Origin: a virus
DNA: 64,000 nt
Strand: one strand, 5' to 3'
IMG/VR virus record: IMGVR_UViG_3300009175_001441
Coordinates: 1 to 64,000 of that record
The translations under genes and the position numbers were made by a program. Below the pieces are notes generated by a model, which searched no databases, was not told the DNA's origin, and saw only the letters and a list, made by a program, of their open reading frames with translations. Below are positions 1,528 to 60,365 of this stretch, in pieces (within the stretch, counting starts at the first letter, position 1; every line of letters starts with the position of its first letter).

Positions 1528-3086
1528 TCTCTCTTGTTGAGAGTGTCTGCAAATCGTTCGTTTTCTAATTCATCAACTGCTTTGCCACGCATGTGCATAG
1601 GAAGTTTGCCAGTGCCGCCGCAATAAGCACATCCAGGACCACGACATTTATCACAAGTATCTTTGCCACCTTGCATTACATCATCCCATTTGGCTAGAGG
1701 ACGATCATTGTCAGCAAATTTTCTCATGTGATTTGCCCATGTCGGTCTGCTGTCTAGAGTCTTTCCACCTTCGTTCCTACGGAACATATTAATCCATTCT
1801 CTGATTTGATCTGCGGTTAAACCAGTTCCTCCCATCTTCTTGAGCATCTTAGCTCGATCTTGTGGAGTGAATTCCAGCAACTCTAGCAAGAATACAACCG
1901 CACGACGTTCTTGTGTGCTCCAACCTGTGGGGGTCTGCTCCCCACGTTCATCCCTCTTGTCTGATAGTGCTGAATCTACAGCTTCGATTGGATTACCTTG
2001 TAGCAACCACGCAAGTGCCAAAGGCTTATCTTTACGGGAAGTGAATTCAGATGGAATGTTCATGTTAACTTGAACGCCTGGGAACACTCGTTTGATAAGT
2101 CCTGTTCGATTATAAATCTTAATGTATCGCTCAATGTCCACGTCGGGGTGGAGTAATCCCTTGAGGAATTCATCTCGTACTCGCTCCAATGCAACACCTC
2201 GTAGATCAGCAAAATCTGCTAAGGAGTCTTCGATATCTTTATCCATTCGCATTCCGCTTCCAAATCGGCAGTGGAAACGAATAGCACGCATTACTCTTAA
2301 TTTATCTTCATTAAATCGATCTTTAGCTTTGCCCACAGTACGCACTAGCTTATTTCTAGCATCATGCAATCCCTTACCGGTTGGGTCATACAATTTACTG
2401 TTTTCACCATCTGCTTTTGTCAATTCGATATACATAGCATTAATGGTTAAATCACGGCGGGAGGCGTCTTCAGTTGGATTATCAACAAAGTCAACAGACG
2501 CAGCACCATCCGTAACCTTGGCATCTCGTCTAAAGGTGGCAATTTCAAATTCTTCACCATCCACAACAGCACTAATTACAAAAACCTTACGATCTTCACT
2601 GCTATCACGACCTTTAATAAACCAAATCTTTTTATCGCCCTTTTCGGCCAGCTTGGGTCGGAAAGTGAGTTTTAATGGTTTGGGTTCCTTACCTGCCGCA
2701 TCTGCTTTTCCTTCCTGTGTGCTACCGCCACGTTCTGGTGCCATATGAAAACCACCAGCGGAGAGAATGAGTGCAACCTGTTCTGGGGTGGCATTTGTAG
2801 CTAAATCATAATCTTTAATTGTTTTTCCAGCTAAAAAGTCTCTAACAGGACCACCTACCAAGAATAAAGATTTCTTAGGCAAGGTAACTGGCTTGCTAGT
2901 ATCGTGCATTACCTTAATGCTGCTGCTTTCTAAGAAAGCCTCAATAATGGGTCGCATCTTAGGAGGAGGAATAAACCCTTTTTCTAATTGGTGAAATTCT
3001 TTCCGCCAATCTTTTTGGCTTGCGCCATTAGACGGTTCTCCCTCTTCTTTGAACACTACATAATCTTTGAAACTTGGATAACTCAT
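1524..3086 (-). CDS. tRNA nucleotidyltransferase / poly(A) polymerase family (CCA-adding-like)
   Basis: A 520-residue protein with the class II nucleotidyltransferase head domain: FLVGGPVRDFLAGK at about residues 75-88, the metal-binding DYD at 92-94, then RRDLTINAMY and the LRVMRAIRFHCRFG helix of the neck. Family members add or repair CCA at tRNA 3' ends or polyadenylate RNA. An extra segment of about 60 residues (about 113-175) separates the catalytic carboxylates. Near the C-terminus CDKCRGPGCAYCGGTG is a DnaJ-like Cys knuckle likely to bind zinc. The N-terminus (SFKDYVVFKEE) carries the capsid-targeting-like motif described in the findings. It is convergent with the upstream gene. Family membership is firm. 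Whether it adds CCA or A is not decided by sequence. Confidence 0.9.
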   Translation of the reverse strand: MSYPSFKDYVVFKEEGEPSNGASQKDWRKEFHQLEKGFIPPPKMRPIIEAFLESSSIKVMHDTSKPVTLPKKSLFLVGGPVRDFLAGKTIKDYDLATNATPEQVALILSAGGFHMAPERGGSTQEGKADAAGKEPKPLKLTFRPKLAEKGDKKIWFIKGRDSSEDRKVFVISAVVDGEEFEIATFRRDAKVTDGAASVDFVDNPTEDASRRDLTINAMYIELTKADGENSKLYDPTGKGLHDARNKLVRTVGKAKDRFNEDKLRVMRAIRFHCRFGSGMRMDKDIEDSLADFADLRGVALERVRDEFLKGLLHPDVDIERYIKIYNRTGLIKRVFPGVQVNMNIPSEFTSRKDKPLALAWLLQGNPIEAVDSALSDKRDERGEQTPTGWSTQERRAVVFLLELLEFTPQDRAKMLKKMGGTGLTADQIREWINMFRRNEGGKTLDSRPTWANHMRKFADNDRPLAKWDDVMQGGKDTCDKCRGPGCAYCGGTGKLPMHMRGKAVDELENERFADTLNKRD

Positions 3087-18928: not shown

Positions 18929-20512
18929 ATGGATTATCAAGAAAATTGTCCGGTTAGCATAACACCATATGCACAATCTACGGATATTACCAATCCTAAA
19001 ATCGTTAGTTTGAATTATACAAATCAAGATTTTTGGTCAATGAAAAGTCGTTTGATTCAATTTATACAAGAAAGATTTGGTTCAACGGGTACGATGTTGC
19101 CAAATACATTTAATGATTTTGTGGAATCGGATATTGCTATTATGCTTATTGAGAATTGGGCATTTTTAGCTGACACACTTTCCTTCAAAATGGACCAAAT
19201 TGCCAATGAAATTTTCATTGATACCGTAGCTGAATTAGAAAACGTTTTTAGACTAGCCAGACTCGTAGGATTTTATCCACAGCCTCCCATTGCAGCTAAA
19301 TCTCTTTGGAGTGGAACAATCAATAATCGATTGGCTGTTGATGTAAGCATTCCCACACCAATGCCTGTAGATGTAGCTGTAGATGGGGCTCCATTAACCA
19401 TAGAATTGTTCGCATGTGATTCTAATTTCAATCCTATATTCAATCAGCCGATAGTTATCCCCGCTGGTAGCATAGAATGCAAAAACGTTGTGGGGCTAGA
19501 AGGAACAACCACTGATGAATCTTTTGTGTCCACAGGCAACATTTCCATGTCGTTACCACTATCTCAATCCCCAGTAATTTATGATTCTATACAAGTGGAA
19601 ATAGATGGGGTGTTATGGAAACAAGTGGATTATTTTACAGACTCTAATCCTAGACGGGAATATAGAATAGAATTTGATTCTAATTGGTATGCTTATATCA
19701 TTTTTGGGAATAATCGAGCAGGATTAATTCCATCTGGTGGTTCTGCCATAAAAGTTACTTATAGAATTGGCGGTGGAACAATTGGTAATATCGTGACCAA
19801 TTACTCAGTCGCACAATGGCAAGCTGAAGCTCCTGGAATAGAGTATAACATTCCAGTTTCTTTCACCAATTACACTCAGGGGAAGTATGGTTACAATGGT
19901 GATACCTTAGAAGATATCAAAAACAAACTTCCAAAGTATTTAAGAACTCAAAATCGTGCAGTATCCGGTACAGATTACAAGACATTTGCTGACCAATTCG
20001 TCACACCCTACAATGGACAGATTGGCAAATCCACAGCCGTACTAAGAAATTATGGTTGTGCAGGAAACGTTATTGATATATATGTTTTAGCCTTATGGAA
20101 CACGCTTTATTTGGAACCAGCAAGTCCAGAACTTAAAGCTGAATTTTCTACTGCGCTCAATAATGTAAAAATGCTGACAGACTTCGTGTGTATTAGGGAT
20201 GGAATAGTAGTTTCTGTTGATGTGGCAATTGAAGCCTCATTAGACAAGTCTTATAGAAAATTTGAAGAAGAAATAAAATTATCCATAGAATCCAAGGCAA
20301 AACAATTTTTCTCACTAAACAATTGGGATTATTACAAACCATTAAAAGACACAGATTTAATTAAAACGCTTTCGGATTTGAAACAAGTAGATGGTTACAA
20401 TATTAATTTTACCAATTTATCGGATGAAGCTAATGGTGGAACGTATGTGGATACAAGATACTATGAAATTATTCGTCCAAACAATATTGTCATAACCATG
20501 TTTTACACGTAA
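18929..20512 (+). CDS. Baseplate wedge protein, gp6 / baseplate J-like
   Basis: A 527-residue protein following gp25, as gp6/gpJ does in contractile phages. Its N-terminus has the typical LNYTNQDFWSMKSRLIQFIQ helix and DFVESDIAIMLIENWAFLAD, a signature of this family. The centre has YIIFGNNRAGLIPSGGSAIK and TYRIGGGTIGNI (the G-x-G-x-x-G-x-x-P turn), and the C-terminal part has the NRAVSGTDYKTFADQF and VCIRDGIVVSVDVAIEA elements. T4 gp6 (about 660 residues) forms the dimer ring joining wedges and triggers contraction. Assignment is strong. Confidence 0.88.
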   Translation: MDYQENCPVSITPYAQSTDITNPKIVSLNYTNQDFWSMKSRLIQFIQERFGSTGTMLPNTFNDFVESDIAIMLIENWAFLADTLSFKMDQIANEIFIDTVAELENVFRLARLVGFYPQPPIAAKSLWSGTINNRLAVDVSIPTPMPVDVAVDGAPLTIELFACDSNFNPIFNQPIVIPAGSIECKNVVGLEGTTTDESFVSTGNISMSLPLSQSPVIYDSIQVEIDGVLWKQVDYFTDSNPRREYRIEFDSNWYAYIIFGNNRAGLIPSGGSAIKVTYRIGGGTIGNIVTNYSVAQWQAEAPGIEYNIPVSFTNYTQGKYGYNGDTLEDIKNKLPKYLRTQNRAVSGTDYKTFADQFVTPYNGQIGKSTAVLRNYGCAGNVIDIYVLALWNTLYLEPASPELKAEFSTALNNVKMLTDFVCIRDGIVVSVDVAIEASLDKSYRKFEEEIKLSIESKAKQFFSLNNWDYYKPLKDTDLIKTLSDLKQVDGYNINFTNLSDEANGGTYVDTRYYEIIRPNNIVITMFYT

Positions 20513-20525
20513 TTGAGGAGTTCAA

Positions 20526-56330: not shown

Positions 56331-56652
56331 AGAATTGTTAGAAAGGGCTTTGCGACAACTTCCTACGGATAGCCATGCAGTAACAAATTTACGAGTAGCT
56401 ATAAGACGAGCCATTAATGAAGCCTATGCTGTTGAACACAAACAGGCTAAAAAATCAGATGGCGATACGATGAATGCACACGAAAAATGGCAGCTTGATT
56501 TGAAGACTAGTACCCTGGTTAGTCCTCAACAACAAAAGCATGCCGTTAGCTTCCTTGATCAAATGATCAAAGAGCAAGAAAAAATAATAGACGACCTTAA
56601 TAAAAAGAAAGCAATAAATGCCAATCAGGACGTGGAACCACTTTTGGATTGA
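56302..56652 (+). CDS. Unknown helical small protein
   Basis: A 116-residue, mostly helical protein from the ATG at 56302 (TTGGAGA upstream), overlapping the cREC gene by 29 bases and the next gene by 35. N-terminal helices (DSRELLERALRQLPTDS, NLRVAIRRAINEAYAV) and a C-terminal coiled helix (FLDQMIKEQEKIIDDLNKKK) suggest an oligomeric partner. Double overlap suggests co-expression with the cREC and 2H genes. Function unknown. Confidence 0.6.
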   Translation: MKSQNIKDSRELLERALRQLPTDSHAVTNLRVAIRRAINEAYAVEHKQAKKSDGDTMNAHEKWQLDLKTSTLVSPQQQKHAVSFLDQMIKEQEKIIDDLNKKKAINANQDVEPLLD

Positions 56653-57193
56653 ACGGAATAATGTTCAACATGAATTTTCTTCAACGCATGTAAGATTACC
56701 CGGAAAGGTTGCTAACAAGGTAATCAAATGGGGAAAGGATAATATTGCGCCCGAAGACATTTACAATGCGGATGGAAAATATGGACGTGAAGACGAAATT
56801 CACGTGACTGTATTATATGGAATACATGATTCTTCTGAAAAGACAGCGGAAGAAATCTTACGATCAGAAAGACCCATTGTGTTGGAATTGGGAAAAGTTG
56901 CAATTTTTAACAACAATCCACAATTTGATGTAGTGAAAATCGATGTGATCAGTCCTGATTTGCATCGAATTCGCAAGGAATTAGCAGACGCTTTAGAATA
57001 TACGGATAAATATCCTCGATATCATCCACATGTAACAATAGCGTATGTTAAAAAAGGTACGGGTGAAAAGTACGAGGGCGGCAAATATTTTGATGGAGAC
57101 AGAATATCTTGTGACGCTGTGATCTTTAGTTCTAAAATCGGAAAGAAAACACCTATAGAATTATACGGTTTGGCGAAGCTCAAGGTGTCGTAA
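56618..57193 (+). CDS. 2H phosphoesterase (LigT/2'-5' RNA ligase-like)
   Basis: A 191-residue protein with both catalytic H-x-T motifs of the 2H superfamily: DEIHVTVLYGI (H62-V-T64) and RYHPHVTIAYV (H138-V-T140). Such enzymes open or process 2',3'-cyclic phosphates and 2'-5' linkages in RNA. The first 12 residues overlap the previous gene and include a Trp-rich RTWNHFWIE. The start could be further downstream but lies well before the first motif. Near the cREC gene, a predicted partner in cyclic-phosphate handling. Good confidence in family; substrate unknown. Confidence 0.85.
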   Translation: MPIRTWNHFWIERNNVQHEFSSTHVRLPGKVANKVIKWGKDNIAPEDIYNADGKYGREDEIHVTVLYGIHDSSEKTAEEILRSERPIVLELGKVAIFNNNPQFDVVKIDVISPDLHRIRKELADALEYTDKYPRYHPHVTIAYVKKGTGEKYEGGKYFDGDRISCDAVIFSSKIGKKTPIELYGLAKLKVS

Positions 57194-57754
57194 GAAATAT
57201 AAATGTCGTTCGTAACATTCTTGAGATTTTTCAATAATTTCATTCGGCACATCATCTAATTCACTGTGCGTGAATAATTCTGCATGATGTATCAATGGGG
57301 TTTTCAGTCGCAAATACTCTTCAATTAGCGGCAACCCTTTGCCTGTAGCTAAATCATTCCAGGTTAATAAAACTGCACCTGGAGTTCGTTTGGCCATTTC
57401 GCAAATTCTTCTAAGCCTAAACGCATAGTACGCAGGCACCATGTCTATGCTGTGCCTGTAATGCTCTGTTATCTCGTTTATAGATGATTTGGCCTCTCGT
57501 ATCACATAAACGAATTTGCAAAGTTTATAAAGAGCTTTACATGAAAATTGAGAATTATACCACAAGTAATCACCGTAAATAGCTGCTGTATTACTCAATT
57601 TATGTTGTTGTTCTATTAACGGCTCTAGATCAGTGGGGTGCTCATAAACGATTTGTGGGCAGAGCATCTCAATACGTGGATTGATGTTCAAGATAGAAAT
57701 CAAGCCATCGGCACCAGAACAAAGATGTGAGGTAACAAATAGAACGGGGTTCAT
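57161..57754 (-). CDS. Sulfotransferase-like P-loop protein
   Basis: A 197-residue protein, convergent with and overlapping the 2H gene by 33 bases. The N-terminus VLFVTSHLCSGADGLISILN resembles the first strand and P-loop-like turn of sulfotransferases, and LCKFVYVIREAKSSINEI resembles the second phosphate-binding segment (R-D-P-x-x-x-x-x-S type). The fit is loose: the P-loop lacks the usual R-S-G-T and the enzyme is short. Possible role in modifying a glycan. Could also be another alpha/beta nucleotide-binding fold. Confidence 0.5.
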   Translation of the reverse strand: MNPVLFVTSHLCSGADGLISILNINPRIEMLCPQIVYEHPTDLEPLIEQQHKLSNTAAIYGDYLWYNSQFSCKALYKLCKFVYVIREAKSSINEITEHYRHSIDMVPAYYAFRLRRICEMAKRTPGAVLLTWNDLATGKGLPLIEEYLRLKTPLIHHAELFTHSELDDVPNEIIEKSQECYERHLYFLRHLELRQTV

Positions 57755-57821: not shown

Positions 57822-60365
57822 ATGGCTTGGTACGATTTTTACAAATTGTTTTCATACTCTTTTACGCCTGATCCTTTAGAAAAGAGCAAGCGAATAAGAG
57901 ATCTTACTGGTGCGGGCGTAACCGTGCCAGACGCCATCCCCGATATTCGGGCACAAGATGGCAGCTATTGGGGAGGTGGACGTGGACTCGTTCGTCTCAG
58001 AGATAGCAATGATTTTATAGATTTATCAACAGTTACAAACCGGCAAAGTCGTTACAAAGAATATGAACGTCTGCGTAATGTTCCCGAAATTGAAAATGCC
58101 ATGACAGTCTTCGCAGATGAAGCATGTTTGGCAGGATGGGAAAAAATAGCCACTCCGTTTTATGGGCTAAAAGAAATCAGATGGTTTGCAGAGAATAAAA
58201 AAGACGAACGATTTTTAGTATATTGTTGGGACTTTGATAAAAAAGATTATACATTAGGCTACGCTTATAATCCTAGATTAGTTAAAACGGCTGAGACAGT
58301 GCGTGTAAGCTTAGACGATGGTACAGCATTTGTAGTCACACCTGATCATCGCATGCTCATGCGAGATGCTACGTGGAAAGCGGCTGGAGAATTAGAACAT
58401 GGTGATGAACTCATGCCGTTCTATCAAGTGAAACCCAAGAGATATCTTAACAATCTTCCCAAAGGACAATTCCCTAGAATATTCACATTCACCGATGGTT
58501 GGAAACATGAGCGACAGTTTCTTGATGAATGGCGAACTGGTCGGAAGGAAAAGAAGTTTGAGAAAATCAACAAAGCTGTACGCCTTCTTGGGGAGGGAAT
58601 GTCCACTCTGGAAACAGCTAGATTAATGGGCTATCAATGGAATAGCATTAAAGATTGGTTGCACCGTGAAGGATTCTCATTAGCTGAAGTGCATCAACTT
58701 GGCAGAAAGGCAGACCACAGACGTGTTCTTCATGTAGAGCAATGGAGAACTACAGACGTTTATGATTTATCAGTAGAAAAACACGCAAACTTCTGTGGCG
58801 AGTCAGTTATTTTTCATAATTGCCAAAAGGGCGAGAATGATCATTTGTTTGAAATTAAAGTGGGAAACGATGAAATTAAGGATGAATTAGAGTGGTTGTT
58901 CTTCCACAGAAAAATGCTTAATCTAGATCGCAAAGGTTGGCTATGGATGAAGCAAGTGTGTACGTTTGGAGATCTATTTGTGGAATTGATCATTGATCCA
59001 GACGCTCCCAAGGATGGAATCCTCAAAGTACAAGAACTGCCACCTGATAGTGTATATCGTATTGAAACCACAAAAGGTAAGTTAATTGAATTCCAGCAAT
59101 CTAATGAAGGGCCTGATTATCAAAGCTTAACACGGGCACCTGTGCCCGAAGCTACGGAATCTGATTTACAACAAGCAACAGCCCTTAGATTTGCACCGGA
59201 GCAAATGGTGCATGTTAAAATCGGGGATGATAGAAAGAGTTTCTATCCCTATGGCGTTAGTTTAATCGAACCGGCACGTGGTCCAGCGCATCAATTAAGA
59301 TTAATGGAAGATGCAATGGTTGTGTATCGATTAACCCGAGCACCCGAACGAAGAGTATTTTATATTGACGTAGGACAGTTGCCTCCATTCAAAGCTGAAT
59401 CTTTCATTGAAAGAATGAAAGATCAATTTAGAAAGAAGAAAGTAGCAAATGCCCGTGGGGCTCCTGGAGCGTCTTCTGTAGAAGAAAGATGGCATGCACC
59501 ATCAGCCGACGAAGATTACTGGATTCCCATTCGTCAGAATGCAAATACCAGAGTGGAAACTCTCCCTGGCGCACAGAATCTAGGTGAAATTGATGATGCT
59601 GTTTATTTCCGCAATAAATTATATACAGCCCTTAACTTACCGGCCAATTACAATTCTAGCGAAGACCCACAGGCCACAAGAATCACTTTGTCAGCACGTG
59701 ATGTGAAGTTTTCTAAACTTATTGAGAGATTACAAAGTTATTTAGTAGATGGCCTACTTCAATTAGCGGAACGTCATTTACAACTAAGAGGTTTCCCAGA
59801 AGAGCTTTATGATGATTTGCAAATCATTATGACTCCACCTTCGGCTTGGCGTGAATTAAGCTGGCAAGAAATTGTCACTGCCAGAATTGGCAATGCTAAT
59901 GGACTCAAAGGTTCTTTGTTGATGTCTGATTTTGATATTTTAACCAAATGGATGAAATATTCAGAAGATGAAGCACAAGAAATGATAGCTCGTAATAAAA
60001 TCCAGAAACTTGAAGATCTTAAACTACAAATTATTGGTCAGAATCCACAATTGCTTGGGGTGGGAGCCCCTGGATCTTCAGACCCACAAATGGGCACAGA
60101 AACCGGTGGGCCAAATCCAATGTTACCGCCTGAAGGAGGAGCACCTCCTGGTGGCGCACCTCCAGGTGGACCTCCTCCGGGCGGAATGCCACCAATGCCG
60201 CCACAAGATAAAGAACCTGAAGGGGCTCCTGGTGGAGCGGCTGGTTCAAATAGCGCACCGTTGGCAGATGCAAGTGAAGAAGAAATCAAGAAATATGATC
60301 TTGAAATTCATAATTGGTCTGCTGAGATGGATCGAGAAGAACCGAATTCAACATTCGGTAGTTAA
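57822..60365 (+). CDS. Portal protein (gp20-like) interrupted by an intein
   Basis: An 847-residue precursor. Residues 1-101 and 334-847 form the portal, about 615 residues after splicing: N-terminal SRYKEYERLRNVPEIENAMT, the middle CTFGDLFVELIIDPDAP and YPYGVSLIEPARGPAHQLRL, and ARITLSARDVKFSKLIERL-type helices match T4-like portals, which form the dodecameric vertex for DNA entry and tail attachment. The end is Pro/Gly-rich (GGAPPGGAPPGGPPPGGMPP), longer than T4 gp20 (524 residues). The intein is at residues 102-333. It follows a divergent minus-strand gene, with AAAGGAAATTTTC before the ATG. Confidence 0.92.
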   Translation: MAWYDFYKLFSYSFTPDPLEKSKRIRDLTGAGVTVPDAIPDIRAQDGSYWGGGRGLVRLRDSNDFIDLSTVTNRQSRYKEYERLRNVPEIENAMTVFADEACLAGWEKIATPFYGLKEIRWFAENKKDERFLVYCWDFDKKDYTLGYAYNPRLVKTAETVRVSLDDGTAFVVTPDHRMLMRDATWKAAGELEHGDELMPFYQVKPKRYLNNLPKGQFPRIFTFTDGWKHERQFLDEWRTGRKEKKFEKINKAVRLLGEGMSTLETARLMGYQWNSIKDWLHREGFSLAEVHQLGRKADHRRVLHVEQWRTTDVYDLSVEKHANFCGESVIFHNCQKGENDHLFEIKVGNDEIKDELEWLFFHRKMLNLDRKGWLWMKQVCTFGDLFVELIIDPDAPKDGILKVQELPPDSVYRIETTKGKLIEFQQSNEGPDYQSLTRAPVPEATESDLQQATALRFAPEQMVHVKIGDDRKSFYPYGVSLIEPARGPAHQLRLMEDAMVVYRLTRAPERRVFYIDVGQLPPFKAESFIERMKDQFRKKKVANARGAPGASSVEERWHAPSADEDYWIPIRQNANTRVETLPGAQNLGEIDDAVYFRNKLYTALNLPANYNSSEDPQATRITLSARDVKFSKLIERLQSYLVDGLLQLAERHLQLRGFPEELYDDLQIIMTPPSAWRELSWQEIVTARIGNANGLKGSLLMSDFDILTKWMKYSEDEAQEMIARNKIQKLEDLKLQIIGQNPQLLGVGAPGSSDPQMGTETGGPNPMLPPEGGAPPGGAPPGGPPPGGMPPMPPQDKEPEGAPGGAAGSNSAPLADASEEEIKKYDLEIHNWSAEMDREEPNSTFGS
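58125..58820 (+). mobile_element. Intein in the portal protein (232 residues)
   Basis: Starts at Cys102 (CLAGWEKI) and ends at Asn333 before Cys334. Seen: an N-terminal Cys with the motif A/B features FVVTPDHRMLMRDATW (T-x-x-H) and GELEHGDEL; C-terminal DVYDLSVEKHANFCGESVI, then FHN followed by Cys, the penultimate His and terminal Asn needed for splicing. The intervening 90 residues lack a LAGLIDADG or HNH nuclease but include STLETARLMGYQWNSIKDWL, a helix-turn-helix, so it is a mini-intein with a small DNA-binding-like insert. Splicing is expected from the residues but not shown. Confidence 0.92.

Follow-up and report, generated by a model that had tools for sequence, protein, structure and literature searches.

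Whether inteins are of any benefit to their hosts has long been an open question, argued mostly from conditional splicing in vitro. Some inteins with a homing nuclease also carry helix-turn-helix (HTH) accessory domains, as the accessible part of one account describes for TliVMA and PI-TkoII, where these domains assist the nuclease (PMC8966425). Inteins in the portals of mycobacteriophages are also known, and the part of the corresponding paper that was accessible reports no family with an HTH only (PMC5050341). In the accessible portions of the open-access literature, no paper was found on a nuclease-free HTH intein family in portals, nor on a phage that retains an intein as a standalone gene without a nuclease.

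The locus described here lies in a window of 64,000 nt (the whole stretch of DNA analysed), which is most of the 67,394-base IMG/VR record IMGVR_UViG_3300009175_001441. An ORF of 847 aa on the plus strand (57822..60365) encodes the precursor of a T4 gp20-type portal protein (Pfam Portal_T4, E 3.6e-72; phrog_213 portal, 1.2e-73), and all parts of it given below are on this strand. Alignment with intein-less portals delimited the N-extein (57822..58124), which ends in ...FADEA, and the C-extein (58821..60365), which starts at the +1 nucleophile Cys (CQKGEND). The intein between them has 232 aa, Cys1-Asn232 (58125..58820), and spans portal residues 102-333, Cys102 being its Cys1 and Cys334 the +1 residue. 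Its N-terminal splicing half (intein 1-97, 58125..58415) contains block B as T72-P-D-H75 (TPDH, 58338-58349) and is recognized by TIGR01445, and its C-terminal splicing part (intein 202-232, 58728..58820, VYDLSV...FHN) is recognized by TIGR01443 and ends in H231 N232, directly before Cys334. Both matches were above the cut-off, as was that of Pfam Intein_splicing (52.3 bits, cut-off 35.8). An AlphaFold model of the intein, made from a 74-row alignment (mean pLDDT 96.5), has a HINT fold that resembles the RecA and DnaB inteins and was matched by VIA to 3ifj (Z 21.8, rmsd 1.7, 138 residues aligned). Cys1, TxxH, HN followed by Cys, and the HINT fold, the features of class 1, were all found in this intein; in block A, T6 (95% in the family) is replaced by Glu. 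Judged from sequence and model, residues 102-333 of this T4-type portal form an intein of the class 1 type whose splice residues are intact and for which splicing is predicted. A chance origin is excluded because many homologues, 141 distinct ones at the same site, have the same architecture. The initial annotation had given the coordinates exactly and had rightly described Cys102, T-x-x-H and the FHN before Cys334 as intact; the Pfam/NCBIfam matches, the HINT model and the homologues all agree with it. Two further cysteines, Cys34 (58224-58226) and Cys224 (58794-58796), make a redox effect on splicing possible.

The splicing parts are separated by an insert of about 104 residues (intein 98-201, 58416..58727), delimited from the model and the family alignment, and not of 90 residues as first estimated. 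The model predicts in it a beta-hairpin (118-128), a helix (129-138), three HTH-like helices within 143-181 (143-156, 161-168 and 172-181) and a fourth helix (186-193). The hairpin and its helix (intein 118-138, 58476..58538), with the motif QFPRIFTF..GW.HERQF.DEW, show the strongest conservation within the insert. The predicted HTH and the next helix (intein 143-193, 58551..58703) gave weak matches to HTH DNA-binding domains: HTH_23 stayed below the Pfam curated cut-off in the window insert (20.3 against 24.6 bits) and matched at E ≤ 1 in 22/74 inserts. When the insert was modelled alone (pLDDT 86.7), the structures matched were mostly HTH regulators among the matches listed, all weak (best Z 5.2), and Foldseek gave no match at E ≤ 0.001. 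The net charge of the insert is +10 in the window intein and positive in 112/112 distinct inteins (mean +9.9), the splicing halves being negative on average; the predicted recognition helix has little net charge (mean +0.3). The HTH had been noticed at the outset and is borne out by the three-helix arrangement in the model. Since it misses the Pfam cut-off and the best structural Z is 5.2, we only infer that it may bind DNA, a suggestion of the initial annotation that is kept as plausible on the predicted fold.

No nuclease was recognized in the insert, in agreement with the earlier reading of its motifs. In a Pfam/NCBIfam scan of the window intein at E ≤ 1, the only nuclease was a weak pPIWI_RE_REase match below its cut-off (0.025), which covers the splicing half and lies outside the insert. 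There was no nuclease among the VIA and Foldseek matches listed for the insert, and the 25 families most often matched by 75 family inteins include no homing nuclease. It could nevertheless be argued that the intein is a homing element, active or lately so, with a hidden nuclease or one recruited in trans. The insert has the near-invariant residues R118, E129, R130 and E188, with H128 at 84%; HTH accessory domains aid the DNA binding of nuclease inteins, according to the accessible part of PMC8966425; and a phage insertion formerly considered nuclease-free had a hidden HNH (PMC11855218). However, besides the lack of a nuclease match in the window intein, no insert column of the family alignment has a His conserved at 95% or more, and the other five frames over the intein contain no long ORF, the longest stop-to-stop stretch being 76 codons. 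We give homing little credit.

In related T4-type portals, the HNH inteins have in common a hairpin followed by a helix ahead of the HNH core. An HNH origin of the insert is not claimed, because hhalign of the family insert against a profile of 27 HNH-intein inserts gave P 0.029 at the hairpin with an equally high score for a reversed decoy, and hmmsearch scores did not exceed those of shuffled inserts (maximum 5.0 against 8.8 bits), the window insert itself giving no in-phase match. NF052663 (RtcB_rel_intein2) matched 75/75 inteins scanned, at best with 1.6e-21, over approximately the whole intein; since the insert alone was unmatched among the families listed, this kinship rests on the splicing part, and RtcB inteins were dismissed as donors of the insert. 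A search for RtcB in 299 genomes gave matches in 55, and those listed start at profile position 311 or later, without the intein part.

The family comprises 141 distinct inteins of 228-237 aa at the ADEA/C..HN/CQ site of related portals (slashes mark insertion points), counted with a pattern that needs DE.C, the GW..E[RK] motif and HN/C, so that inteins lacking the insert would go uncounted. TxxH was present in 141/141, Cys1 and HN being part of the search pattern. In an aligned set of 112 distinct inteins, with ends defined by tblastn for the first search and partly by the pattern for the junction search, Cys1, TxxH and HN each occurred in 112/112. Close relatives with a nuclease at this site, which would have pointed to its simple loss, were not seen, the size range holding for 141/141. 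The insert was kept in every family intein examined.

IMG/VR was first searched with two queries, the intein of the window and the homologous one of LR756511, a 595-kb phage record; this covered the best 80 of 190 confirmed relatives, on contigs of up to 527 kb. Two other searches were independent of the insert. The junction search, covering the best 80 of 100 confirmed loci, gave 77 new ones, and HN stood directly before the C-extein in 76/77, the remaining locus being cut. The extein search, covering the best 80 of at least 567 confirmed loci, gave 75 with the HTH intein and one (L375) showing its C-terminal part; L388 was cut, two loci carried a different intein, inserted upstream by four residues, and one was empty, the site thus being occupied at 76/79 informative loci. 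Additionally, an insert-only search of viral contigs (best 80 of 145 relatives) gave 78 new loci, 76 of which fit the portal-site pattern; of the other two, L298 is truncated at its 5' end and L315 reads ADEM/C. Where these loci were checked, the insert fold was found at portal loci only. The family profile detected one full-length family intein in each of 28 records, mostly the largest contigs, within a portal-sized ORF in 27 of them and free-standing only in L351. The portals of 105 loci were 55-80% identical to that of the window (median 63%). The portal and intein were also present in a GTDB contig binned in a Neisseriaceae MAG (L182, RXKI01000042.1), which is therefore regarded as a phage contig inside a bacterial genome assembly. 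In LR756511, at ~225,000 (L008), a 249-aa ORF carries a short portal piece (LDVGQLPPYKAEAF) in another context, perhaps a scrap of recombination.

Intein and portal distances were correlated over 106 loci (r = 0.82; Mantel 0/1000). With 76 loci, 27/47 portal splits with support of at least 90 recurred in the intein tree, against 0.2 on average with permuted labels, and 5/47 were contradicted at support of at least 90. Median dN/dS, calculated from 45 pairs with dS 0.1-1.0 that are not independent of each other, was 0.098 in the splicing part and 0.102 in the insert; within the insert, the HTH stood at 0.145 (up to 0.97 in single pairs) and the hairpin at 0.023. Entropy was 1.03 in the hairpin motif, 1.36 in the N-terminal splicing half and 2.10 in the HTH; the hairpin is better conserved than the N-terminal splicing half, and conservation is lowest in the HTH. 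The insert is maintained by selection, as shown by its low dN/dS, and the intein is fixed in this clade of huge phages by descent, mostly vertical. Given this broad agreement of the two trees and the purifying selection on the insert, the intein shows neither decay nor recent homing. Hence, two forms offered for it by the initial annotation were abandoned: a decayed one, since the insert is found throughout the family with dN/dS of ~0.10, and a novel mobile one, since the trees are largely congruent and a single site was empty among the informative loci (best 80 of at least 567). The patchiness typical of homing was absent from this site, and this near-universal presence with mostly vertical descent speaks further against a homing element. 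By contrast, a larger second intein in the same portals was patchy, being present at 10/76 loci and changing state 8 times on the tree. Most second inteins lie at YRL/C..N/TRAPERR; those of L024, L029, L031, L043, L056, L060, L064, L072, L075, L102 and L104 have ~420-440 aa and LAGLIDADG-like motifs. That of L025, included in the 10/76, is at TLPGA/C instead. The motifs of these second inteins, LAGLIDADG- or HNH-like, were assigned by eye. Outside its portal, the 298-kb contig of L025 (G305) has one more intein match, in a 484-aa ORF (19513-20514).

An insert conserved in this way might be kept only for the folding of the HINT domain or for fast splicing, the excised intein having no further role. 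Conservation of the hairpin is on a par with that of the splicing core, PFY at the hairpin start is near-invariant, and after the loss of a nuclease such a dependence would be held by selection on splicing alone. Nevertheless, the sister clade (L340 and L341, 45% identical to the window) has minimal inteins of 140 and 136 aa at TY/../SDE, exactly four residues upstream of the window site, which lack the insert, and other minimal inteins are present in related portals. An insert is therefore not generally needed, and we regard a role confined to folding or splicing as rather unlikely. More distant T4-type portals (21-27% identity) have intein-less sites: those of Microcystis phage Mel-JY01, Flavobacterium phage immuto, Rhodothermus phage RM378, Bacillus phage SP-15, LR756501 (735 kb) and LR756508 (484 kb). 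In LR756508 (L195, 931-5091) the ADEA/C site is empty within a 1386-aa portal ORF of the T4 type that contains three other inteins, two of ~140-150 aa and one HNH-like. T4-type portals look like intein hotspots in the viral contigs L201-L243, with sites at ETLPGA/C, YNPM/C, YFFAQ/C and DDRK.M/C; several of the inserts there are HNH-like, and those of L210, L233 and L235 lack the HNH core and still have the preceding hairpin.

Within the intein-bearing clade, the search for an intein-less allele, proposed with the initial annotation, yielded one case. An early pattern that demanded CQ[KR] had given 0 among the best 80 of 100 loci, and the resulting idea that no empty site exists was discarded when the extein search found L351, which reads CQI. 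L351 (IMG/VR 3300032884_000230, 33,688 bases) has the portal site YADEA/CQIGENG without an intein. Its portal, 68% identical to that of the window, falls inside the intein-bearing clade, where it groups with L043, L024 and L031 (support 98); this group adjoins the window and L012 in the tree. Read by eye from the translations, the gene order is that of the window: terminase, small ORF, ligase-like ORF, minus-strand ORF and portal. In the window, the ORFs ahead of the portal and collinear in L351 are a ligase-like or 2H-phosphoesterase-like one (56618-57193) and one on the minus strand (57161-57754), with functions assigned by eye.

L351 has one extra gene (2345-3052), ~650 nt from the empty portal site, whose 235-aa product shares 46% identity with the window intein. 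This ORF has its own ATG at the first residue of the intein, with AGGA just upstream, and its stop at the last residue. The splice residues are lost (C1S, T72N, D214T and the penultimate His); it stands independently, without exteins and with its splicing motifs gone, as standalone genes of the HO/WHO type do. The hairpin (KQFPRIYTHTHGWKNERQFIDEWRT) is retained, as is the HTH region, and neither an endonuclease nor zinc fingers were seen when the 235-aa sequence was read against the family alignment. Of the 46 columns conserved at 95% or more in the family (32 in the splicing part, 14 in the insert), it departs at 12, compared with a family mean of 0.7 and maximum of 5, the C-terminal columns being shifted by a one-residue insertion. 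The departures comprise 10/32 splicing columns (family maximum 5) and 2/14 insert columns (family maximum 2), which by itself is no strong contrast. Neutral simulation up to 10 changed splicing columns left an intact ORF in 2, 5 or 8 of 2000 runs, depending on the starting intein. The free intein groups with that of L043, as its portal does, with a weak support of 72. Its closeness to the former target would suit a WHO-like standalone homing gene, the form that homing would take in this phage. As a single case on one metagenomic contig of that size, the arrangement may also be a misassembly or a recent relic.

If the insert served splicing only, a free splicing-dead copy would be unexpected; this one, dead by the class-1 route, still has its ORF and its insert, which counts against a role in folding alone. 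Such a copy beside an intein-free portal is expected where the product is needed rather than the act of splicing, and the L351 case, although a single contig, suggests from its sequence an independent function for the excised intein. Alternatively, and as the initial annotation had considered in proposing a control step, splicing could be a conditional switch which times or meters the maturation of the portal, with the insert as sensor. A portal protein is needed in exact copy number, and Cys34 (97%) and Cys224 (61%) are conserved besides Cys1; conditional splicing is known from other inteins, in the accessible parts of the literature. A switch would, however, leave a splicing-dead copy in a phage with an intein-free portal unexplained, and we think it quite improbable.

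We incline, with modest confidence, to the view that one ORF gives rise to the portal and to a free HINT/hairpin/HTH protein that acts in trans, most likely by binding DNA. The precursor would splice via the class-1 route, as its intact residues suggest, and would release mature portal and the free 232-residue intein, a HINT fold plus hairpin and HTH, in equal numbers. The nuclease would have been lost or never present, and the insert would have been kept since the released intein works in trans. It could, for example, act as a regulator that reports the amount of portal made, possibly feeding back on the expression of late or head genes. Against a DNA-binding role in trans stand the low conservation of the HTH, the near-neutral recognition helix and the HTH match below its cut-off. 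The 103 stretches upstream of portals revealed no operator or target DNA; the 9-mers they share were AT-rich and were judged without a background model. A bolder idea, which we hold only tentatively and with some doubt, is that splicing amounts to 1:1 production of portal and a DNA-binding regulator, a parasite having become an essential co-product throughout the clade and having once moved out as a gene.

In summary, a nuclease-free intein is fixed and under selection in many large uncultured phages, and one relative seems to separate its product from splicing. Since the product is apparently parted from splicing in L351, the proposal that the excised intein has a job becomes directly testable with a short, expressible protein. 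If true, an unstudied DNA-binding-like protein would be part of the head-assembly programme of huge phages.

HTH domains in nuclease inteins, standalone inteins in yeast and portal inteins in phages are known; a nuclease-free HTH intein fixed in a clade, together with a free form, was not found in the open-access literature. With class 1 inteins (Pfam Intein_splicing; 3ifj, 1mi8, 2in0) the portal intein has Cys1, TxxH, HN/C and the HINT fold in common. Unlike them, it is nuclease-free and yet not minimal, with its conserved HTH insert of ~104 aa, and its distribution is not patchy but fixed in one phage clade. Gordonia phages and, according to PMC5050341, mycobacteriophages likewise have an intein in the portal, but the Gordonia phage record differs in portal type and insertion site. 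PhoVMA is similar in that the intein persists after nuclease activity was lost (PMC8966425); its dead LAGLIDADG is still recognizable, whereas none was recognized in the portal inteins scanned. The free gene of L351 resembles yeast HO/WHO, as described in the accessible part of PMC7282813, in being standalone and intein-like, without exteins or a C-terminal splicing motif, but HO/WHO kept the endonuclease and added zinc fingers, and the L351 gene shows neither. TliVMA and PI-TkoII share with the portal intein an HTH-like module of DNA-binding type on a HINT fold (PMC8966425); in the portal intein this module stands alone, without the nuclease.
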